IMG/VR virus record: IMGVR_UViG_3300030108_001346
Span: 1 to 26,373 of that record
DNA from: a virus
Direction: 5' to 3' (one strand)
Length of the DNA stretch: 26,373 nucleotides
The notes under the pieces were generated by a model. It was not told the DNA's origin and did no database searches. It saw nothing but the letters and a program-made list of their open reading frames with translations. The position numbers were made by a program, and so were the translations under genes. Below, one piece after another: positions 246-23,291 of the stretch (positions are counted from its first letter, which is position 1; each line of letters starts with the position of its first letter).

Positions 246-2102
246 TTATCCATAAATATCACCCCAATTGTTTCCAAATTCATAATCAACTTTATTGGGA
301 ACTTCTAGTTTAACAGCCTCCTCCATAATCTCAATGATTTTTTTTGCCTCAGCATCATTTTTTATGGACAGGTCTAATTCATCATGTATTTGTATGTGTG
401 GTATGATTCCTTCTTTGTAAAGTTCTAGCATTGCTTTCTTTGTCATATCAGCAGCAGATCCTTGAATTAATTTATTCAATGCTTTGTATGTGTAAGCTCT
501 TCTGATTCCCGGTCCATGTTCCCTGAGTGCATCTTCGTGGGGCAATGCTTTATGCATACCGAATTGATTTGGCTCCCACAAATGAAACCTACATAGCCTG
601 CCTAGTAAAGTTCTTATCTGACCTCTATCTTGAGCTCTGTTAGAAGCTTTAGTCATCAATTGTTTTACAAAGGGAACTCTTGCGTGATACGTATCAAAAA
701 GTTCTTTTGCTTTTTCTTTAGACACTCCTAGCTCTGCTTGTAATTTAGCTTTACCCATGCCATAAAATAATCCAAGGTTAATTGTCTTAGCCTGTGATCT
801 AGGTATCTCTGCCATATCAGCAACAGTTTGGTGAAAGTCTGAGTTGGGATCATTGTTGTATGCATCAATTACATCGTAAACTGATGGTAGTTTATATAGC
901 GATGCATAATGAACTACGAGTCTAGGTTCTTGCTGTGAATAGTCAAAGCAACCCCATTTACATCCATTTTCAGGAAGGAATAGTGACCTAATTTTAGGGC
1001 CTAAATCCTTGTTTCTAGCAGGTATTTGCTGAAGATTAGGGTTTTGATAACTGAATCTTCCTGTAATAGTTCCGCCATTGTCTGATCGTAATTGGTTTAT
1101 CTCTGCGTGTATTCTACCATTGTGTTCGTATTTTATTATTGAGTCAATGAAAGTTGTGTGTGCTTTATTTATTTCTCTTGCTTGTGCAATCATTCTTACC
1201 ACAGGATGTTCATGTTCTTGTAAAAAGTTTTTAGTAAAAGATGGTGCAGAGGTTTTTAAAGTTCTTTCGTAAGGTATCTTGAGTGTATCAAAAACATTTG
1301 CTATGCTTCTAGCTGCCCAAATCTGTGGTCTTATGTTTGTTTCACCTTCTATCTTTGTTAATAATTCGTTTTCTTCTTTAATAAAATCTTTTTTCATTTG
1401 ATGTGCTTTTTCAATATCGACTCTGACACCTTTGAATCGCATATCAACAAGACAAGGAAACAACTCTGTCTCTAGATCAAATATATCTTCAAGATCTTGA
1501 TGTAGTATTTCTTTTTTCATTTCTTGCCACAAGCCAAATGTAATCTCTGCGTCTCGTTCTGCGTAACCACCAACGTGCATAGCAGGAAGTTTATACATTT
1601 CTGCTTTAGGATCGATACCCCAACTTTGTGCTGCTTCCGCTAAAGCTGATTCATTTTTACCATAACCAAGGTAGTGCCAAGATAAACTATTAAGATCATA
1701 TCTAAATCTATTCTCATCAGTTACAGCGGCTGCAATCATTGTACAAACAATATCGCCTTGTACCCTAAGTCCAAGTCTTTTTAACCAACAAACATCATAG
1801 ATTGCGTTATGAAATATTTTTGTTGATGGTGCATTTAATATATCTTGTAGCCAATTTAAAACTTGTTTACGATCCATGTTACCGCCACCTTCGTGTGCAA
1901 TCGGAAAGTATCCTTTGTAATGTGCTGTTGCTATAGCAATACCTACGACATCACCATTACCTATGACTGACCCTGATCCTAGCTCCTTAAGTCCTGGGTC
2001 TTTTGTCTCTAAGTCAATAGCGATTTCATCTACCTGTCTTAAATCAGGAAACTCTGTTGGTTTTACCCACTCTGTCTGTGCTTCAAACTTTGGTATTCGC
2101 AT
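246..2102 (-). CDS. polA: Family A DNA polymerase with 3'-5' exonuclease (Leu762 type)
   Basis: This is the replicative polymerase. The N-terminal proofreading exonuclease shows all three motifs: ExoI D30-L-E32, ExoII N99-x3-D103 and ExoIII Y180-x3-D184. The polymerase domain has motif A DYSQQEPR (D387, E392), motif B R435-x3-K439-x7-Y447 and motif C HDE (H573-D574-E575), plus IQGSAAD near 546-552. At 618 aa it has no 5'-3' exonuclease domain, like other phage family A enzymes such as that of T7. In motif B the residue matching E. coli Phe762 is Leu443. That variant is known to be common in marine virioplankton polymerases and has been linked, as a hypothesis, to slower or more faithful synthesis and to temperate life styles. 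The gene overlaps the DUF3310 gene by 20 bp and is co-transcribed with the helicase and primase genes. All catalytic residues are present, so it is probably active. Confidence 0.97.
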   Translation of the reverse strand: MRIPKFEAQTEWVKPTEFPDLRQVDEIAIDLETKDPGLKELGSGSVIGNGDVVGIAIATAHYKGYFPIAHEGGGNMDRKQVLNWLQDILNAPSTKIFHNAIYDVCWLKRLGLRVQGDIVCTMIAAAVTDENRFRYDLNSLSWHYLGYGKNESALAEAAQSWGIDPKAEMYKLPAMHVGGYAERDAEITFGLWQEMKKEILHQDLEDIFDLETELFPCLVDMRFKGVRVDIEKAHQMKKDFIKEENELLTKIEGETNIRPQIWAARSIANVFDTLKIPYERTLKTSAPSFTKNFLQEHEHPVVRMIAQAREINKAHTTFIDSIIKYEHNGRIHAEINQLRSDNGGTITGRFSYQNPNLQQIPARNKDLGPKIRSLFLPENGCKWGCFDYSQQEPRLVVHYASLYKLPSVYDVIDAYNNDPNSDFHQTVADMAEIPRSQAKTINLGLFYGMGKAKLQAELGVSKEKAKELFDTYHARVPFVKQLMTKASNRAQDRGQIRTLLGRLCRFHLWEPNQFGMHKALPHEDALREHGPGIRRAYTYKALNKLIQGSAADMTKKAMLELYKEGIIPHIQIHDELDLSIKNDAEAKKIIEIMEEAVKLEVPNKVDYEFGNNWGDIYG

Positions 2103-2307
2103 AATCCCTCTCTAGTATCATCTCTAAATAATGAATAGCTTTATGTATATCTTCTTCCTTTCCTTTTACAGCGTGCCTGCATACATATTTTATAGCTGAC
2201 CCCTCTGCAAAAGGCAACCTATTCTCATTTATAAATTGACTTGGTTGAATTTTCATATCTCTGTAGTGAGACCCTCCGACTTGTTTTTTATACGCCCTCG
2301 ATGTCAT
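2083..2307 (-). CDS. DUF3310 small phage protein
   Basis: A 74-aa protein with the DUF3310 signature. It has GGSHYRDMKIQPSQFI at the N-terminus, AIKYVCRHAVKGKEEDIHKA in the middle and a helix with HYLEMIL near the C-terminus. DUF3310 proteins are common in phage replication modules and are sometimes labelled nucleotide kinase from an old assignment, but there is no P-loop here and the function is unproven. The all-helical KYVCRH / K-x2-D-I-x-K-A pattern recalls MazG/dUTPase-like helical folds, which is only an impression. The gene overlaps both neighbours by about 20 bp (helicase upstream, polymerase downstream), so the three are almost certainly translated from one transcript. Confidence 0.88.
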   Translation of the reverse strand: MTSRAYKKQVGGSHYRDMKIQPSQFINENRLPFAEGSAIKYVCRHAVKGKEEDIHKAIHYLEMILERDYANTKV

Positions 2308-3766
2308 AACCTAATCTATCCTCCTTTGCTGCCATTATGTATAAATTTTGTTTAGTTCGTGTTACACCTACGTACCAAACTCTATGTTCTTCATCTGCTT
2401 TCTCAGGACTCTTCTCTATGCTTTCACGAATCTTATCTGTATTATCTAATATTAATAATACATTGTCAGCTTCTCCACCTTTAGCCGAATGAATCGTAGA
2501 TAGTTTTACTCTTGCTTCCTCAGAAAGTTTTTCTTTGTTGCTCAACATTTGCCTGATGTATAGAACTTGTTCAGGGTCTGCATTAAAAAGTTCATACCAT
2601 GTATCAGATGTATCAATATTAAAAGACTCACAACTGTAGCTCATATGATCTTCGCCATCAAACTCGTGTCCTGTGTAGTCAAATATATCTTTTATTTCAC
2701 TAGCCGTTAGTTGTGCACCCGATGTCCATTTTGAAAAATCTCTAATGGCTTTCCATAGTTTTGAGCTAAAACTTTTTCTTTCTTTGTATTCAAAGTATAT
2801 ACCTCGTTCCATTAAATATGGTTTCATTTTAATTAATCTGTAATTTGTTCTAGCAAGAATCAACCAATTACCTTGTGTTAGATCAACTTCATCAAAATCA
2901 TACACTTCTTCACAGTGTCCTTCATCTTCTCTTGGTTTCCATTCTTTTGGTATTCTTGTTTCAATTTGAGATATGATTGAGTCAGCAACTCTTTGAACTT
3001 TAATTGGGACTCTATATGATTTTGGTAATATCTTTTCTTTTGCAGGTTCGTCTTGAAATCTTTTTACATCTGCTCCTGCCCAACCATAGATCGCTTGATC
3101 ATCATCTCCTGCTAATATCATAATCTTTGTATTCTTTTTAATGATGTCATACATCTTCCATTGTATAGGTGATAAGTCTTGTGCTTCATCAATAAAGACT
3201 ACATCAAATTTGGGGCATAATTCTGACGAAACAAATTTTTCTATCATGTCAGTAAAATCATACAGCGCGAAAGAATTTTTATAATTTTTTAATTCAGCTT
3301 CTATAATCTCTACTAAATTGTAATCCATATCGTCTGAGTATAAATCTGTGTTGTATTCATCTTTGGGTGTAATGTTTTTAATTCTAGCTATGTTAATAAG
3401 ATTAAAGTATTCGCTGTCAGAATCTATGTATCCTGTTTCTTCTTCGCCTCCTCTGTAAACAGATACTTGAACACCAATAGTTCTACCTATCTCTTCATAG
3501 TGTTCGGGTTGCATAACATTATCTTTTTTCATTCCTAATGTATTAAATGCTAGAGAGTGCAATGTTTGAAAGTGATTAAGATCTCTGTATCCATACTGTG
3601 GAAATAATTTTAACATTCTTTCTTTTGCTTCTGTAGCTGCTTTCTTTGTAAAAGCAAAGTAACCAATTTTTTCTATAGGTGTTCCTAATTTTAAAAATGT
3701 CTGCACGTATTTCAACAGCTTTGTAGTTTTACCTGTTCCTGGTGGTCCTAATATTTTTCTCATCAT
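2288..3766 (-). CDS. UvrD/PcrA-like superfamily 1 DNA helicase
   Basis: An ATP-dependent 3'-5' type SF1 helicase, probably the replication or recombination helicase of the phage. Visible motifs, in order: Walker A GPPGTGKT (7-14), motif Ia FAFTKKAATEAKERM (about 37-51), Walker B/motif II DEAQD (193-197), motif III GDDDQAIYGWAGA (220-232), motif IV SYR (250-252), motif V TIHSAKG (424-430) and motif VI VWYVGVTR (463-470). At 492 aa it is shorter than cellular UvrD/PcrA (about 700 aa), so the 1B/2B subdomains must be reduced, as is common in phage versions. Its start overlaps the end of the primase gene by 4 bp and its end overlaps the DUF3310 gene. No DnaB-type helicase is visible in the window, so this protein or the SNF2 protein may carry the helicase function. 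Confidence 0.95.
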   Translation of the reverse strand: MMRKILGPPGTGKTTKLLKYVQTFLKLGTPIEKIGYFAFTKKAATEAKERMLKLFPQYGYRDLNHFQTLHSLAFNTLGMKKDNVMQPEHYEEIGRTIGVQVSVYRGGEEETGYIDSDSEYFNLINIARIKNITPKDEYNTDLYSDDMDYNLVEIIEAELKNYKNSFALYDFTDMIEKFVSSELCPKFDVVFIDEAQDLSPIQWKMYDIIKKNTKIMILAGDDDQAIYGWAGADVKRFQDEPAKEKILPKSYRVPIKVQRVADSIISQIETRIPKEWKPREDEGHCEEVYDFDEVDLTQGNWLILARTNYRLIKMKPYLMERGIYFEYKERKSFSSKLWKAIRDFSKWTSGAQLTASEIKDIFDYTGHEFDGEDHMSYSCESFNIDTSDTWYELFNADPEQVLYIRQMLSNKEKLSEEARVKLSTIHSAKGGEADNVLLILDNTDKIRESIEKSPEKADEEHRVWYVGVTRTKQNLYIMAAKEDRLGYDIEGV

Positions 3767-5379
3767 AATATGTCCTTTTTGTGTTCTGTAACTTTGTGAT
3801 AAATTTTTATTTTCTCGAACTGTTTAATTGAAATCATTACAACATTTTTAGTTGGACTATTGTGTTTACCTTTTTCTTTTGTAGGAAATCTTTTTTGATC
3901 TAAGAAATCTATTTCGCAATCCTTATATATCTTTAACATCATTGATCCTGTTTTATCTTCTTGATAACGCCAACCTTTATTTTTTAACTTTTTATAAAAC
4001 ACATCAAATTTAAAATAAGCATACCCATCTTGTATTAGTGTTGTTCCTGTTTTAAATGAGGCATCATTCTTAGCTTCGGGTCCTGTAATTTTTTGATAAA
4101 CATTATCGTGTAATTTTTCTCTTGGTGTTGTACCTACTGGTGGTGGCATAACTTTTTGTGTTTTAAATAAACCATCTAAAATTTTTTGATCGTCAGCACC
4201 TTTCTGAAGAGGTGGAACAAATCCTGCATACTTAGCTATTGAGTTTCTTCTTTTCCTTTGGTCGGTTAAGTGTTCTATTGTTTTACAATGTACAGATTTT
4301 ACAGTTTGTCCATCAGGTAATGTAACATCAAAATTATATTCTGGTTCTGGTTCAAGATCTACTTTCTCTAGATTTGCACACAGTGGATATGAATCTTGAA
4401 AGTCAGATGCAATACCATATGTTCTCTTAACACATAAACCTCTCATACAATGTTGTGCAATCGGATCTTGATTACATGTATAACCTTTATAGTTTTGTTT
4501 CCATGATCTAATCTTTTGTGTAAGTTTTTGTTTAGACCAAGCCACTGAGTCTTCGAAGTATAGTACAGGTGCACTCATTACTTTCTCTTCCCAATTGTCA
4601 GGGTATTTCTTTTTAGCAAACACCATATAGTTGTATAGAAATCTATCTCTACCATCTTTTAATTTATTTTTTGACAACGCTGCTAAACATGGTGGACCAT
4701 CACTAAACTCTGCATTTGATCCTTCTAAAACTTTTTTCTCTAGCTCGTCATCTATATCTTTTATTCTTTCTGCTGTTATAAAATTAGATTCAACGAGTTG
4801 TATAAATTGTTCAAAAGTAAATTCTGTTCCATCGTAATTTAGAGCTCTTCTTTCTGTTTTCTTAAAGTATGGAAGATTAATGAAATTTCCTTTGTTCATC
4901 TCTCCTGTCTCACTGTCTTTGACAAGTTCTGTCTGCTTTGGAAACACTTCTGTTTCAGGTTTCAAATTAAATATTGGAATTAAATTTGTTAAAAATGATC
5001 TTATAATTTTTGCAGGAATAAAATCTCTTGTAAATATGTAAAGATGAAGACCGCCACTTTTAGATAGTATTGGTATAATTGGTAAATCATATTCTTTTAT
5101 TTTGTCTAGATAAAATTTTCTGTCGAAGTCCACATACTCTTGTGGATCAATATCTATTGCACCAAAACGTGCGTGATTCTTTTCGTTACATGGTTGTACA
5201 CCAATAGATTTTGTTCCTGTTAAATGTGCTCTATAAGCTTCGTCTGTAAGTTTTTGCTGTGCCCATCTATATTCAGGTTTTTGTTTTTTAGATATAGGGT
5301 CTACTTCAAGCCTTTGCATGTCAGCTTGTCCATAGTTCTCAGAGAACCCACTAAATATATTTATAAATTTTTCTTCCAT
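3763..5379 (-). CDS. Archaeo-eukaryotic primase (AEP/PrimPol) with PriL-like four-Cys domain
   Basis: The N-terminal domain has AEP catalytic motifs: AIDID (D76, D78) for metal binding, SKSGGLH (106-112, H112) for nucleotide binding, then EVFPKQ (144-149) and GNFINLPYF (164-172), the pattern of the TOTE/PrimPol-type primases. Residues 228-316 show GPPCLAAL (C231), a KDGRDRFLYNYMVF segment, and three later cysteines C302, C311 and C316. That order (PPC-x-x-L, then G-x-x-x-R-F, then C-x8-C-x4-C) recalls the C-terminal Fe-S domain of the archaeal/eukaryotic primase large subunit PriL. The last 150 residues contain a likely winged-helix segment (YFKFDVFYKKLKNKGWRY). The protein probably makes primers for the neighbouring polymerase. 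The SD (AGGA) sits only one base before the ATG. The Fe-S reading is inference; the cysteines could bind zinc instead. Confidence 0.88.
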   Translation of the reverse strand: MEEKFINIFSGFSENYGQADMQRLEVDPISKKQKPEYRWAQQKLTDEAYRAHLTGTKSIGVQPCNEKNHARFGAIDIDPQEYVDFDRKFYLDKIKEYDLPIIPILSKSGGLHLYIFTRDFIPAKIIRSFLTNLIPIFNLKPETEVFPKQTELVKDSETGEMNKGNFINLPYFKKTERRALNYDGTEFTFEQFIQLVESNFITAERIKDIDDELEKKVLEGSNAEFSDGPPCLAALSKNKLKDGRDRFLYNYMVFAKKKYPDNWEEKVMSAPVLYFEDSVAWSKQKLTQKIRSWKQNYKGYTCNQDPIAQHCMRGLCVKRTYGIASDFQDSYPLCANLEKVDLEPEPEYNFDVTLPDGQTVKSVHCKTIEHLTDQRKRRNSIAKYAGFVPPLQKGADDQKILDGLFKTQKVMPPPVGTTPREKLHDNVYQKITGPEAKNDASFKTGTTLIQDGYAYFKFDVFYKKLKNKGWRYQEDKTGSMMLKIYKDCEIDFLDQKRFPTKEKGKHNSPTKNVVMISIKQFEKIKIYHKVTEHKKDIL

Positions 5380-5391
5380 ATCCTATCAGTA

Positions 5392-5446
5392 AAGGGCGGT
5401 TAAACTCTCGCCTCCCCGCCCTTGTTGCAACTATTCCCAAAGGAAT
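5392..5446 (-). promoter_or_regulatory. Tandem inverted repeats between SSB candidate and primase genes
   Basis: The 66-bp gap between the two genes is packed with dyads. A GC-rich stem AAGGGCGG/CCGCCCTT (5392-5399 with 5416-5423, loop 16) is followed by the perfect 8-bp palindrome GTTGCAAC (5424-5431) and a small stem ATTCC/GGAAT (5433-5437 with 5442-5446, loop 4) that touches the preceding stop codon. There is no T-run after the large stem in the direction of transcription (CCTTTACTGATAGG follows), so a simple intrinsic terminator is unlikely. It may be an attenuator, an RNA processing site, or a protein or replication start site; the sequence alone does not decide. Confidence 0.6.
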
Positions 5447-6207
5447 TAGAAGTGTGATGAATCCTTTTTATTAGTTTCACCACCGTGCTTTGCTTTAACA
5501 TTTCCTTTTGAAATGCTTTCAGCAAAAGCTTTAGCTTGTTGATACAGTTCAGAATTAGACACAGGTCCAATCTTCTGTACTTCCCAACCAAACCACGTGC
5601 CCTTATCGTTAGACTGTTGAACAGTTCTTAACCTATAAGCATGACTAAAAGATGCTGGCGTGAATAAACCATTCTTACCTTTCATCTTTATACCGGCCAT
5701 CATTGAGTTCCATTTTCTACTAATTTTTAATTGAGTAGATTTCATAGAAATCAAAGCAGTGGCTGCTGTAGGATTGGTAATCAATACAAAGTGAGATGCA
5801 GTTTTCTCGACATAATTACCATTTGGTAATCTGTCTTTGTAATTTGCATCGGTCTTTGTTTGACTCATGATGTCTGAAGAAGAGTCATGGATTGCAACTG
5901 GTGCACCTGATCCTTCCCCCCTATCTTTCCACTCTATGTATTCGAGTTTATAAAAACATGGAACGACTGTTATGCCTTTCATGCCATCATACAACTCTCC
6001 AGAAACAGAATTGAATATCATTCCTGGTTCTGCACCTTCCACATACTTACCATCCCTTTTATTTACTTCAGGTGATAACTGTCCTAGGATTTTTAGAAAT
6101 GGTAAAGCTAGATCTTCTTGACCTAGTTTACCAAGACCTTGACCTGCGTCCTGCTCAAATGTATTGGCAGGAAGAGATGCGGTCTTTTTTTCTGCTACTT
6201 GGTTCAT
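5446..6207 (-). CDS. Putative single-stranded DNA-binding protein (function inferred from place)
   Basis: A 253-aa protein that I do not recognise with certainty. It begins with a polar tail, then ALPFLKILGQLSPEVNK (about 34-50), GMIFNSVSGELYDGMKGITV (62-81) and a beta-rich core with many aromatic and basic residues (CFYKLEYIEW, ISRKWNSMMAGIKMKGKNG, GTWFGWEVQ), and ends in a Lys/Asp/Ser-rich low-complexity tail (KHGGETNKKDSSHF). A beta-rich core with an acidic or polar C-terminal tail and a place just before primase and helicase fit an ssDNA-binding protein, comparable in role to T7 gp2.5. The RBS is strong (AAGGAG, 8 bases before the ATG), in line with the high expression such a protein needs. 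The alternative is a recombination mediator or another replication factor. Confidence 0.5.
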   Translation of the reverse strand: MNQVAEKKTASLPANTFEQDAGQGLGKLGQEDLALPFLKILGQLSPEVNKRDGKYVEGAEPGMIFNSVSGELYDGMKGITVVPCFYKLEYIEWKDRGEGSGAPVAIHDSSSDIMSQTKTDANYKDRLPNGNYVEKTASHFVLITNPTAATALISMKSTQLKISRKWNSMMAGIKMKGKNGLFTPASFSHAYRLRTVQQSNDKGTWFGWEVQKIGPVSNSELYQQAKAFAESISKGNVKAKHGGETNKKDSSHF

Positions 6208-6208
6208 G

Positions 6209-6805
6209 TTACTTGCTCCTTGTTATTTTGGTTCGGTTGCCTGCGAACACGTTAAATAGATCAGAGGGCATTTCTTGTCCAGATTCAAGACGCTCTCTGA
6301 CCATTGCTTTTAGAGTCATAGGTTCAACCTTTAATTTCTGGATAGGTTCATATCCTTGACCCTGTGCAAGGTTAGCGTAAGCTATTGCCTTGTTATCTTC
6401 GTTACGACCAAAAGCAACAGTAATCTCATTTTTAATAAGATCACCTAAGCCGTTTTTACGAAGCCAATTAAATGCATCTTCCTTTTTAGCTGCAGGAATC
6501 GATGCACCGTAGACAGGTTTCACTTCAACAGCGGAACCGTCTGCTAATTTTAAAGTTGAGATGTTCATCTCAGTCATCATCGTAGGAATAACTTCTCCTG
6601 ATAACAACTCTTGATTTCTTTTCAACTCTTTAAGTTTTTTCTCTTGCTCATCAATCTCATCTTCTAGAGATTGAAGTTTCGTTACTTGATCAGAAAGAGC
6701 TTTGGCGTTGTTTACTTCGCCTAAACTTTCCTTTCTGTCTTCTTCGAAGTTAATTGATCCACTACCTGTGAATGACTTAACTACTATTTTTTGTTTAATG
6801 CTCAT
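6209..6805 (-). CDS. Hypothetical protein with N-terminal coiled coil
   Basis: A 198-aa protein. Residues about 38-70 form a clear charged heptad-like coiled coil (VTKLQSLEDEIDEQEKKLKE and following), then a beta-containing part STLKLADGSAVEVKPVYGA, a helical WLRKNGLGDLIKN segment, and a basic C-terminus ending in GNRTKITRSK. No enzyme motif is visible. The gene overlaps the preceding 121-aa gene by 11 bp and has a strong RBS (AAGGAG, 7 bases before the ATG). It lies one base before the SSB-candidate gene, so a DNA-replication or recombination accessory role is the contextual guess. I do not recognise the family by name. Confidence 0.8.
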   Translation of the reverse strand: MSIKQKIVVKSFTGSGSINFEEDRKESLGEVNNAKALSDQVTKLQSLEDEIDEQEKKLKELKRNQELLSGEVIPTMMTEMNISTLKLADGSAVEVKPVYGASIPAAKKEDAFNWLRKNGLGDLIKNEITVAFGRNEDNKAIAYANLAQGQGYEPIQKLKVEPMTLKAMVRERLESGQEMPSDLFNVFAGNRTKITRSK

Positions 6806-7160
6806 CTATTTCTCCTTTCTCATAAAGATTAACATTGATAGGATAATATTTTTTCTCTTGCTTATCCCATTTTAACAGCTTGTATTTACCGTTTGTTAAA
6901 TCCGATACAATCGAACAAGCCACACCGATTATAGCAGGATCTCCCGTTAATAAAAGATAATCATCACTTGTATAATCTTTCAAAGATTTTCTTAGTTTAA
7001 AAACTAATGGTCCTGGAGAGAATATAATTTGTGATAGCTCAGGTAAAAGAAATTTTAAATTACCATAATGAGAAGCCCCCATAATGTTAATCTTAGGCTT
7101 ACCCTCTCGAGTGCCTGCAATTTCTTGTATTACGTAAACTGTATTTTCTTTCATTGACAT
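6795..7160 (-). CDS. Hypothetical protein, first gene of the replication operon
   Basis: A 121-aa protein of mixed alpha/beta composition with NTVYVIQEIAG, KINIMGASHYGNLKFLLPEL and DDYLLLTGDPAIIGVACSIV. The last segment (D-Y-L-L-L-T-G-D-P followed by a small-residue helix) is typical of a nucleotide- or protein-binding alpha/beta fold, but I cannot assign a family. Two in-frame ATGs exist at 7160 and 7154. The consensus promoter just upstream would start transcription near 7155-7157, after the first ATG and right before the second, and no Shine-Dalgarno sequence precedes either. The second ATG (119 aa) on a leaderless mRNA is therefore a real possibility. This is the leading gene of the leftward replication operon. 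Confidence 0.75.
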   Translation of the reverse strand: MSMKENTVYVIQEIAGTREGKPKINIMGASHYGNLKFLLPELSQIIFSPGPLVFKLRKSLKDYTSDDYLLLTGDPAIIGVACSIVSDLTNGKYKLLKWDKQEKKYYPINVNLYEKGEIDEH

Positions 7161-7208: not shown

Positions 7209-8636
7209 ATGAATTATAAATTTAAGACAAAACCCTATAAGCATCAAGTAACTGCTTTACAAAATTCTTGGATGAAAGAATATTACGCTTACTTTATGGA
7301 GATGGGTACGGGTAAATCTAAGGTATTAATAGACAATGCGGCAATGCTTTACGATAATGGCAAGATCGATGGTCTTTTAATTATAGCACCCAAAGGTGTG
7401 TATAAAAATTGGCACGAAGCTGAAATACCCACACATCTTGCAGATCATATTGAGAATGTGTCAGTTCTGTGGCAAGCCAATATTACTATGAAACAGAAAA
7501 GAAACTTAGATACTTTATTTAAAACAGATCACAGGTTGCATATTTTATGTATGAATGTCGAGGCTTTTTCTACTAAAAAAGGTGTAGACTTTGCACATAG
7601 ATTTTTATCGTGCCATAGAACAATGATGGTTATAGATGAGTCAACTACAATTAAAAATAAAGATGCTAAAAGAACTAAAAATATTTGTTCTTTGGCTCCT
7701 TATTCTAGATACAGAAGAATACTTACAGGATCACCTGTCACAAAATCGCCGCTAGATTTATTCAAACAATGTGAGTTTTTAAGACCTGAGCTATTGGGTC
7801 ATGTATCATTTTATACTTTTAGACAAAGGTATGCCGTTATGAAGAAGATGAATTTTAGTGGCAGATCTGTAGAGATTCCAATCGGTTATAGGAATCTTGA
7901 TGAATTAAGTGCTAAATTAAAGGCTTTTTCGTACAGGGTGTTGAAAGATGAATGTTTAGATTTACCTAAAAAAACTTTTATGAAAAGGATTATTCAATTA
8001 TCTCCTGATCAATTTAAATTATACGATCAAATGAAACAAATGGCCTTAGCACTACATAATGGCAAAAGTATGACGACAGCCACAGTTTTAACACAATTGA
8101 TGAGATTACAACAGATAACTTGTGGTCATTTTACGGCGGACGATGGAACACTACAAGACATTAAAAACAATCGGATTGAAGAACTAATTAATGTTTTAAA
8201 TGAAGTTGAAGGTAAGGTTGTTATATGGGCTCATTGGCAAAGAGATGTTCATAAAATTATTGAAGCTATTAAAAAAGAATTTGATGAAGACTGTGTAGAT
8301 TATTATGGTTTAACCCCTAGTGCAGATAGACAAAAAAATATTAAGAAGTTTCAAGAGGATTCTAATTGTAGATTCTTTGTAGGAACTCCACAAACAGGAG
8401 GTTATGGTATTACTTTGACAGCTGCATCAACAATGGTCTATTATTCTAATGGATATGACCTTGAAAAAAGAATGCAATCAGAAGCTAGAATTGATCGTAT
8501 TGGACAAACCAAACCTATGACTTATATCGATTTAATTTGTGAAGATACAGTTGATGAAAAAATTGTAAAATCTCTTAGAAAGAAAGTTGATATTGCAACT
8601 CAAATTATGGGAGAAGAGTTAAAAGATTGGATATGA
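7209..8636 (+). CDS. SNF2-family DNA-dependent ATPase/helicase
   Basis: A superfamily 2 ATPase of SNF2 type, 475 aa. Motifs in order: Q-like motif YKHQ (10-13), Walker A MGTGKS (32-37), motif Ia IIAPKGVYKNW (58-68), motif II DEST (143-146, in place of DEAH), motif III LTGSP (172-176), then in the C-terminal half VVIWAHWQRDV, DYYGLTPSADRQ, the motif V region GGYGITLTAAS and motif VI EARIDRIGQ (425-433). The family translocates on dsDNA and remodels protein-DNA complexes; in phages it is usually placed with replication or recombination. It is the first gene of a two-gene plus-strand island set against the rest of the window, divergent from the replication operon and probably under its own promoter. 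Confidence 0.96.
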   Translation: MNYKFKTKPYKHQVTALQNSWMKEYYAYFMEMGTGKSKVLIDNAAMLYDNGKIDGLLIIAPKGVYKNWHEAEIPTHLADHIENVSVLWQANITMKQKRNLDTLFKTDHRLHILCMNVEAFSTKKGVDFAHRFLSCHRTMMVIDESTTIKNKDAKRTKNICSLAPYSRYRRILTGSPVTKSPLDLFKQCEFLRPELLGHVSFYTFRQRYAVMKKMNFSGRSVEIPIGYRNLDELSAKLKAFSYRVLKDECLDLPKKTFMKRIIQLSPDQFKLYDQMKQMALALHNGKSMTTATVLTQLMRLQQITCGHFTADDGTLQDIKNNRIEELINVLNEVEGKVVIWAHWQRDVHKIIEAIKKEFDEDCVDYYGLTPSADRQKNIKKFQEDSNCRFFVGTPQTGGYGITLTAASTMVYYSNGYDLEKRMQSEARIDRIGQTKPMTYIDLICEDTVDEKIVKSLRKKVDIATQIMGEELKDWI

Positions 8637-21918: not shown

Positions 21919-22572
21919 TTACTTTTTAAACCAACTTGGAAGTCCTAAATGTGGTCTTCGATCGTTTATGTTCTTATCCGCATCTTTGGATTTTTGGTCG
22001 TTATAATGCAGAAATACTTGGGCGCAGTTATCACCTTGAAACTCTTCTCTCCAATGTTCTAATTCCATGCCCCTATAAACTAACATGTCTCCAGGTTTTA
22101 GATTTACTGTAATGCCTTTGTTTTGACTAGATGTAGTTATCTTTTTACCATCAGGTATACCTACATTTTTCTTTGGTTCTAGATGTATAGGCCAAGGGTC
22201 ACCACCCAAATTAAGAGTTGTAGATATTTCACAACTAAACCTGTCTTTATGTCTTTTTAATATATCTCCTGCTTTATATATCCTTGCATATGAATAAGTT
22301 GGGTTTAATTTTAAACCTGTATGCTTTTCCATAATAGGTAAAGTTCTTATAAGCAAAGTTTCCATAGCTATATCTGCATAGTGAGAATATGTATTTGGAA
22401 CTTGGTCATCATTCCACATACCAAATTCTGTTGTAAATTGAGATATATATCTTTGATCAAATAAAGTTCTTGCCACCTGTCTTTTGAGTAAAAAATAATT
22501 ATAGACAAACTCTGCTATTTGTTTTGGTACAGCTTCTTTAATTACACAGTATTTATTTTTTTTAAAACTCAT
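21919..22572 (-). CDS. 2-oxoglutarate/Fe(II)-dependent oxygenase (third of cassette)
   Basis: A 217-aa DSBH oxygenase. The iron-binding pair H108-x-D110 sits in RHKDRFSCEIS, and the distal histidine H173 in GMELEHWREEF; the DSBH strands around it are ITVNLKPGDMLVYRG (154-168) and AQVFLHYND (184-192). The family uses 2-oxoglutarate and O2 to hydroxylate a substrate that cannot be identified from sequence. The expected basic residue for 2OG binding some 10 residues after the distal His is not obvious. Its ATG overlaps the stop of the preceding oxygenase gene (ATGA). The C-terminus (NDRRPHLGLPSWFKK) is an extension. It is one of three distinct oxygenases in tandem. Confidence 0.85.
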   Translation of the reverse strand: MSFKKNKYCVIKEAVPKQIAEFVYNYFLLKRQVARTLFDQRYISQFTTEFGMWNDDQVPNTYSHYADIAMETLLIRTLPIMEKHTGLKLNPTYSYARIYKAGDILKRHKDRFSCEISTTLNLGGDPWPIHLEPKKNVGIPDGKKITTSSQNKGITVNLKPGDMLVYRGMELEHWREEFQGDNCAQVFLHYNDQKSKDADKNINDRRPHLGLPSWFKK

Positions 22573-23291
22573 TTTTTAAAGCTCGTTTCTTTTGATATCA
22601 TTGTTTCAACAACTTTAATATTAAAGTGTATAAATCTAAAAGGTTCTAGACCTGGATCCACCGCAAATTGATGTGGAACATAGCCTGGAAAAATAATTAT
22701 AGTTCCTGGTTTAGGTTTATAATGGATTTGATTAGCAGCTAAAGTTAATTTATCTGGTTCTTTTTGAAAAAGTTTAGTCATCTCTGCACCTGATCTTGGA
22801 TCATGAAATATTGGATAAGATGTTTTTTCAGAACATTTTAAAAAATAAAATCCTGACACATGTTGATTCCAATGCACATGAGTATCATGATGACCACCAC
22901 CTTTTTCACTAAACTCTTGCACCCAAAATTCTGTAAAGTGTAAACTGTGATTTTGTAAATTAAATCCTTGCCAATCTAAAAATTCATAAGATCTTTGTCC
23001 TATAAATTGAACAAACTCTTTTATTTTAGGATCATTAGAAAAACTCTCACTGTGTTTAGATAAACCGAATGTACCTAAATCTTTTTTCCATTTAGGTTCA
23101 TTTTTTAATTTATCTTTTAAAAGTTTTTCTGCTTTTTTAATATATTTGTCAGTTACTTTAATTGCATTTTTTAAAAACATTGGAGCCTCTGCAACCCAAA
23201 TAGGTGTTTGAAAATAAAATGCAGATTTAAAATCTACATGTCCTTTTGTTTTTTGTGGGGTGCTACTTCCGCCTTGTTTTATATTATTCAT
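22569..23291 (-). CDS. 2OG-Fe(II) oxygenase (2OG-FeII_Oxy_5-like, second of cassette)
   Basis: A 240-aa protein. The core has H138-x-H140 in DTHVHWNQHVSGFYFLKC, the His-rich signature of the putative 2OG-Fe(II) oxygenase family (H-x-H-x(5)-SG-x-Y-x-L), with the distal H207 in FPGYVPHQF and R217/R219 in EPFRFIHFN for 2OG binding. The N-terminus holds KSAFYFQTPIWVAEAP, typical of the family. In this group the usual HxD is replaced by HxH or nearby His/Asp (H134-H135-D136), so which residues bind iron should be modelled. Cyanophages and other marine phages carry many such genes of unknown substrate. It is transcribed between two other oxygenases with 1-4 bp spacing or overlap. Confidence 0.82.
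   Translation of the reverse strand: MNNIKQGGSSTPQKTKGHVDFKSAFYFQTPIWVAEAPMFLKNAIKVTDKYIKKAEKLLKDKLKNEPKWKKDLGTFGLSKHSESFSNDPKIKEFVQFIGQRSYEFLDWQGFNLQNHSLHFTEFWVQEFSEKGGGHHDTHVHWNQHVSGFYFLKCSEKTSYPIFHDPRSGAEMTKLFQKEPDKLTLAANQIHYKPKPGTIIIFPGYVPHQFAVDPGLEPFRFIHFNIKVVETMISKETSFKK

Follow-up and report, generated by a model that had tools for sequence, protein, structure and literature searches.

The window analysed here, the whole 26,373-nucleotide stretch of IMG/VR virus record IMGVR_UViG_3300030108_001346 (positions 1 to 26,373), is a fragment of an ocean phage genome that encodes, on its minus strand, a primase of 538 amino acids (aa). With a probability of about 0.72, we read this protein as the replicative archaeo-eukaryotic primase (AEP) of an HTVC023P-type pelagiphage, an enzyme without a helicase part of its own, which carries a PriL-like initiation domain in cis and serves the phage family A DNA polymerase (PolA). 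The window PolA was 64% identical to that of Pelagibacter phage HTVC027P and 55% identical to that of HTVC023P, and membership in this group has been delimited by a PolA at least 45% similar to those of cultured members (PMC9599517); the window phage thus belongs to the HTVC023P-type pelagiphages. The PHROG profile phrog_21866 ('primase') covered residues 3-523 of 538 (E 7.7e-115), making the protein a full-length member of that family.

5379..3763, minus strand: AEP primase gene (PHROG 21866 'primase'), 538 aa, ATG start
4810..5379, minus strand: AEP catalytic domain, TOTE/CAPP type, residues ~1-190 (Pfam, NCBIfam, Foldseek)
5146..5154, minus strand: motif I, D76-x-D78, invariant in 32/32 relatives
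5044..5064, minus strand: motif II, S106-K-S-G-G-L-H112 (SKSGGLH), with K107-G110 and H112 invariant in 32/32
4936..4950, minus strand: motif III, E144-V-F-P-K148, with E144 and P147 in 32/32 and K148 in 29/32

The catalytic domain belongs to the TOTE/CAPP group of the AEP superfamily. Pfam AEP-TOTE matched residues 41-177 at 2e-14 (54 bits, cut-off 27), NCBIfam PrimPol_Msp matched the protein at 4.7e-12, and Foldseek comparison of the full-length model recovered CAPP structures at E values of 4e-11 to 1e-9 (best 7nqe, E 4.2e-11), with all significant Protein Data Bank (PDB) matches confined to the AEP part. The CAPP equivalog model NF040561 scored 45 bits against a curated cut-off of 200 bits. 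An earlier inspection of the DNA letters alone, hereafter the sequence-only reading, had predicted a TOTE/PrimPol-like catalytic domain with the motifs D76-x-D78, S-x-S-GG-x-H112 and E-x-FPK; the family and structure matches bear out the domain, and the motifs lie at the residues it named, with the catalytic residues invariant in an alignment of 32 diverse members (97% to 21% identity).

The second half of the argument rests on four cysteines downstream of the catalytic core, which the same reading had located correctly.

4405..4707, minus strand: PriCT-1 / PriL C-terminal domain (CTD)-like four-cysteine helical domain, residues ~225-325 (predicted from PriCT_1 in relatives, PriL spacing, profile searches and AlphaFold2)
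4687..4689, minus strand: C231 (Cys1, within GPPC), conserved in 32/32
4474..4476, minus strand: C302 (Cys2), 32/32
4447..4449, minus strand: C311 (Cys3), 31/32
4432..4434, minus strand: C316 (Cys4), 31/32

All four cysteines occurred together in 31 of the 32 diverse members, in each of 75 IMG/VR copies of near-full length, and in 12/12 of the named phages sampled, HTVC027P and HTVC023P included, while the remaining cysteines (64, 334, 365 and 488) were not conserved across the diverse set. Because the pattern was kept throughout the 75 IMG/VR copies and the 12 named phages, its conservation, as judged from aligned sequences, is far beyond chance and indicates strong selection. The window copy is spaced C302-x8-C311-x4-C316 and the phage family C-x68-76-C-x8(10)-C-x4-C, three phages excepted: the primases of Pan1, R5C and R26L carry ~57 extra residues in the stretch from Cys1 to Cys2 (gap x127-128) and retain the other spacings.

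To which family this domain belongs was examined by scanning the cysteine region (residues 200-346) of each of the 32 members against Pfam. PriCT_1 (PF08708) was matched by 12 of them (best E 1.4e-6, next best family 0.0036), and one member (L092) scored above the Pfam cut-off in the corresponding part of the alignment; the window copy itself gave no PriCT_1 match. By family model the domain would therefore be PriCT_1, a known relative of the PriL CTD, and not the Pfam PriL family. PriCT-1 and the PriL Fe-S domain have been argued to be homologous by Kazlauskas et al. (PMC5862659). Each of 40 archaeal PriLs used for comparison had four cysteines, the first of them within PPC, with the spacing mostly C-x70/71-C-x8-C-x6-C, and human PRIM2 shares the FPPC...R...C frame. 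The phage domain has the same cysteine order and PPC at Cys1, with a last gap of x4 instead of x6, and in both the second helix begins with RF.

Reciprocal hidden Markov model (HMM) searches of 982 dereplicated open reading frames (ORFs) pointed the same way. Members of the phage primase family were the 7 best non-PriL matches of a PriL HMM, and PriLs made up 11 of the 15 best non-family matches of a phage-domain HMM (best E 0.0028). The latter HMM aligned to one PriL (L137) over the full length of the domain, keeping the first three cysteines in register (independent E value 0.005). Hypergeometric values for these ranks overstate the case, as family members are not independent, and were not relied on. 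In profile-profile alignment with PriL, the HHalign score was 20.9 compared with 11.0 ± 2.3 for shuffled columns, a score reached by 1-2 of 150 shuffles. Two further HHalign settings were set aside: global mode gave no trustworthy Cys-to-Cys alignment, and the 71% probability obtained with a raised shift served only for comparison with shuffles, the alignment placing the later cysteines out of register. Searched against PDB sequences, the cysteine-domain profile returned no matches.

Taken together, cysteine order, spacing, PPC, RF and the reciprocal HMMs support, with qualifications, a relationship of the domain to the PriL CTD. The sequence-only reading had called it a PriL Fe-S-like domain, and that likeness holds for these features, while the family model detected is PriCT_1 and Pfam PriL is absent. 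Its further claim that one polypeptide holds both primase subunits applies to the C-terminal part of PriL only. Between the AEP core and Cys1 lie only ~35-40 residues, too short for the PriL N-terminal domain (NTD), and because that domain cannot fit, the chain does not have the complete AEP, PriL NTD and CTD composition of PolpTN2-type PriS-PriL fusions.

Structure prediction was compatible with this relationship. The AlphaFold2 model of the full-length protein had a mean predicted local distance difference test (pLDDT) score of 84.9, and residues 200-346 modelled alone gave a mean pLDDT of 85.2 and a predicted template modelling (TM) score of 0.76. The modelled order, namely a PPC helix, an RF helix, two further helices and a mostly-coil stretch holding Cys2-4, fits the sequence pattern of the PriL CTD. 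The Foldseek comparison of the isolated cysteine domain, proposed by the sequence-only reading as a check, came out mixed: PriX (4wyh) ranked first of 350,542 PDB chains (TM 0.50 by target length), but at a non-significant E of 2.3 (prob 0.28) and with no PriL chain among the matches, so that the predicted fold match is only suggestive. PriX is a PriL-CTD-like subunit, structurally and functionally equivalent to the eukaryotic PriL CTD (PMC5700102). A zinc ribbon was considered for this domain and rejected: CxxC pairs are absent, and neither the fold nor the family searches matched a ribbon. The rest of the chain is of mixed alpha/beta secondary structure and had no Pfam match; we suspect a winged-helix-like end.

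3766..4344, minus strand: C-terminal region, residues 346-538, mixed alpha/beta (AlphaFold2 secondary structure)

The genes around the primase place it in a replication cluster.

246..2102, minus strand: family A DNA polymerase with 3'-5' exonuclease (PolA; Pfam DNA_pol_A 1.7e-66)
2288..3766, minus strand: UvrD/Dda-like superfamily 1 helicase (Pfam UvrD-helicase 6.8e-30)
5446..6207, minus strand: Pam3_Gp34-like protein, directly upstream partner of the primase (Pfam 5.5e-74)
6209..6805, minus strand: DUF7307 (Pam3 gp33-like; Pfam 1.2e-36)
6795..7160, minus strand: Pam3_gp32-like protein (Pfam 2.6e-32)
7209..8636, plus strand: SNF2-type superfamily 2 helicase (Pfam SNF2-rel_dom 8.2e-24, Helicase_C 2.1e-11)

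The order runs from the SNF2 helicase on the opposite strand through the Pam3 gp32-, gp33- and gp34-like genes to the primase, the UvrD-type helicase and PolA. The helicase ATG and the primase stop overlap by 4 nt, and the helicase gene is probably translationally coupled to the primase gene. The primase-helicase-PolA order is common to the cultured pelagiphage HTVC027P and to DSL-LC04, and in several phage groups the primase belongs to a conserved replication cluster that also includes PolA, a helicase or both. As the sequence-only reading had noted, a family A polymerase is encoded nearby and the window has no TOPRIM-DnaB primase-helicase: Pfam DnaB_C was not found in the window or in four relatives of 37-61 kb, and Toprim_2 was not found in these or in HTVC027P, the helicases present being the UvrD-type and SNF2-type ones. 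That the lack of DnaB is an artefact of a short window was ruled out, relatives of ~57-61 kb being likewise without it. Elsewhere in the window, two overlapping minus-strand genes (21919-22572 and 22569-23291) had PHROG matches, one to a putative 'ferrochelatase' label (1.1e-47) and the other to a 2-oxoglutarate-Fe(II) oxygenase.

In the mechanism we propose, the primer would be made by the N-terminal TOTE/CAPP-type AEP domain, and the same chain would then carry a PriCT-1 domain homologous to the PriL CTD, with its four-cysteine metal site retained; the metal predicted there is most likely a 4Fe-4S cluster. Nucleotide binding can be predicted by analogy.

4642..4650, minus strand: R244-D-R246, predicted initiating-nucleotide-binding arginine(s) at the N-terminus of helix 244-258 (analogy to PriX/PriL)

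In PriX, D70, R72 and R74 in the first turn of the central helix hold the initiating nucleoside triphosphate and match R306 of human PriL and R355 of the yeast protein (PMC5700102). In the AlphaFold2 model of the phage chain, the first turn of helix 244-258 carries D242-G-R244-D-R246-F, and an arginine occurred at 244 or 246 in 32/32 members. From this equivalence we infer that the two nucleotides would be divided between the domains, the 5' one going to the middle domain and the 3' one to the AEP domain. With R244/R246, in the opening turn of its second helix, gripping the initiating (5') nucleotide, the middle domain would swing beside the catalytic site for synthesis of the first dinucleotide and would stay on the primer 5' end during extension by the AEP domain. 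PolA of the phage would next take over the primer, and one or more of the helicases encoded by separate genes would do the unwinding.

Several observations weigh against this reading. PF04104 (PriL) was matched by none of the 32 members, the HHalign probability of the phage domain against PriL was 7-10% and concerned mainly the PPC segment, and the PriX match was non-significant with no PriL chain beside it. The Fe-S cluster of the Sulfolobus solfataricus primase is dispensable for priming (PMC5700102), and the MpCAPP AEP core primes alone (PMC10345425), so that the cluster may be structural. In one copy (L083; 4650-6233, plus strand, on a contig binned as Thermoplasmatales) an in-frame deletion of ~19 codons removes Cys3 and Cys4 with the rest intact; either the cluster may be dispensable or this copy may be defective.

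Of the alternatives, the one that survives best, although we consider it unlikely, is a zinc site: the four cysteines would hold zinc with no role beyond stabilising the PriCT-1 fold, and the PriL likeness would reflect shared fold ancestry with a different metal. AEPs often have zinc sites at varying places (PMC3973330, PMC10345425), and the x4 last gap departs from the usual x6 of PriL; however, the CxxC knuckles typical of zinc ribbons are lacking, and Cys1 stands ~70 residues ahead of the other three, as in PriL, inside a PriL-type PPC segment. Less probable still is an ordinary PriCT-1 domain that gained its cysteines independently and resembles PriL by convergence. PriCT_1 alone was detected, the profile-profile signal to PriL is weak, and helicase-fused AEP-TOTE relatives with PriCT_1 (L099 and L103) are without the four-cysteine pattern, as are two similar long AEP-TOTE proteins (L098 and L100). 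Against convergence, spacing, PPC, the RF helix and the reciprocal HMM matches agree jointly, the homology of PriCT-1 and the PriL Fe-S domain has been argued in published work (PMC5862659), and CAPPs and an archaeal AEP-TOTE protein (L111), which belong to the same AEP group, also have PriL-like cysteine domains. We hold it very improbable that the protein is a repair or defence-like primase-polymerase, as its CAPP/TOTE relatives are, with host DnaG doing the priming: the nearest structural relatives are CRISPR-associated CAPPs and the family is named after TOTE conflict systems, but the gene lies in a replication cluster conserved in several phage groups, and the window genes that were scanned include none of CRISPR or TOTE systems.

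On the preferred reading, a replicative primase with a cis-acting PriL-like domain, many phages are indicated to combine a bacterial-style PolA with an initiation domain of archaeal/eukaryotic style, and the enzyme speaks for the common origin that has been proposed for PriCT-1 and PriL. In human cells the PriL Fe-S domain sits on a separate primase subunit. It is this domain that lets the cellular primase begin a chain, and what its cluster does there is disputed. A phage enzyme as compact as this one (538 aa), uniting the catalytic and the initiation domain in a single chain and having natural relatives both with and lacking the cysteines, would offer a simple system in which to address that question. 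It is possible, with the odds slightly against, that the phage family is a missing link that shows the PriL Fe-S domain and the PriCT-1 found in primases of mobile elements to be one domain, the full four-cysteine cluster having been kept in abundant marine and other phages and lost mainly on fusion to helicases. If so, phages would commonly replicate with a true 4Fe-4S primase, even where the ocean is poor in iron.

The sequence-only reading had judged the combination unusual, and this judgement is not supported. The 'hybrid replisome' of AEP primase and PolA is real, yet it is already present in cultured, sequenced phages; the family is widespread and annotated 'primase', the same arrangement occurs in a cultured pelagiphage, and single-chain PriS-PriL and AEP-PriCT(Cys) enzymes have been published. 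Relatives were found by tblastn in 24 phage records, the best in HTVC027P (40%) and others in roseophages, a cyanophage, and Klebsiella, Acinetobacter, Salmonella, Pseudomonas and Providencia phages, and IMG/VR contains hundreds of homologues. The PHROG 21866 primases (HTVC027P gp04, vB_DshS-R5C, Pan1, DSL-LC04, and Klebsiella and Acinetobacter phages) are full-length homologues at 40% to 23% identity, from which the window primase differs in nothing essential; the records seen do not mention a cysteine or PriL-like domain, and no description of the four-cysteine signature of these primases was found in the literature searched, subscription papers lying largely outside that search.

The CAPPs (MpCAPP; NCBIfam NF040561) provide the closest AEP structure and likewise place a PriCT-like domain after the AEP domain, which in MpCAPP was published with 'conserved cysteine residues' (PMC8211822). 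Unlike the window primase, they add tetratricopeptide repeat, reverse transcriptase or helicase parts and are encoded in CRISPR operons. Two Bacillota proteins of CAPP A1 type (L155 and L154) have, by eye and not by HMM score, roughly C-x67/68-C-x15-C-x1-C with HxxR after Cys1, where the phage domain has x70, x8 and x4. The archaeal/eukaryotic PriL CTD shares with the window primase PPC at Cys1, an arginine near the start of helix 2 and the cysteine spacing, but PriL is a separate subunit and its Cys1-Arg loop is longer (+19, against +13/+15 in the phage); PriX has no cluster.

PolpTN2 of Thermococcus nautili plasmid pTN2 is a published single-chain PriS-PriL fusion, with AEP, PriCT-1, a four-cysteine PriL-like domain and a C-terminal winged helix, and its brown colour is consistent with Fe-S (PMC3973330, PMC5862659). 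It differs from the window primase in its AEP family, in having Gln for the motif II His, in its larger PriL-like region that includes the NTD, and in its archaeal plasmid setting. Fused PriS-PriL chains have also been described from Bacillus provirus phBC6A51 and Nanoarchaeum equitans, the former in a bacterial provirus (PMC3973330); the likeness here is by description, not by sequence. A chain combining an AEP with a PriL-like cysteine domain was thus already known, and the phage enzyme is a further, widespread variant and not a new kind.

We also observed a 978-aa protein on a Ca. Methanoperedens metagenome-assembled contig (L111; 7737-10670, plus strand) that joins AEP-TOTE (81-231) to a PriL-type Fe-S CTD (275-386) and a possible AAA/HTH part, and five Thermoplasmatota ORFs with a PriL CTD (L140, L145, L147, L150 and L151) that, at 496-748 aa, are longer than ordinary PriL, some of which might be primase fusions. 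The CTD of L111 was found by our own PriL HMM (E 6.6e-12) and is not reported by Pfam PF04104; on sequence, L111 appears to be a clearer AEP-PriL fusion than the window primase. Given the cysteine domains of L111 and the CAPPs, the joining of AEPs of this group to a PriL/PriCT domain with cysteines looks ancient and not like the product of a one-off fusion.

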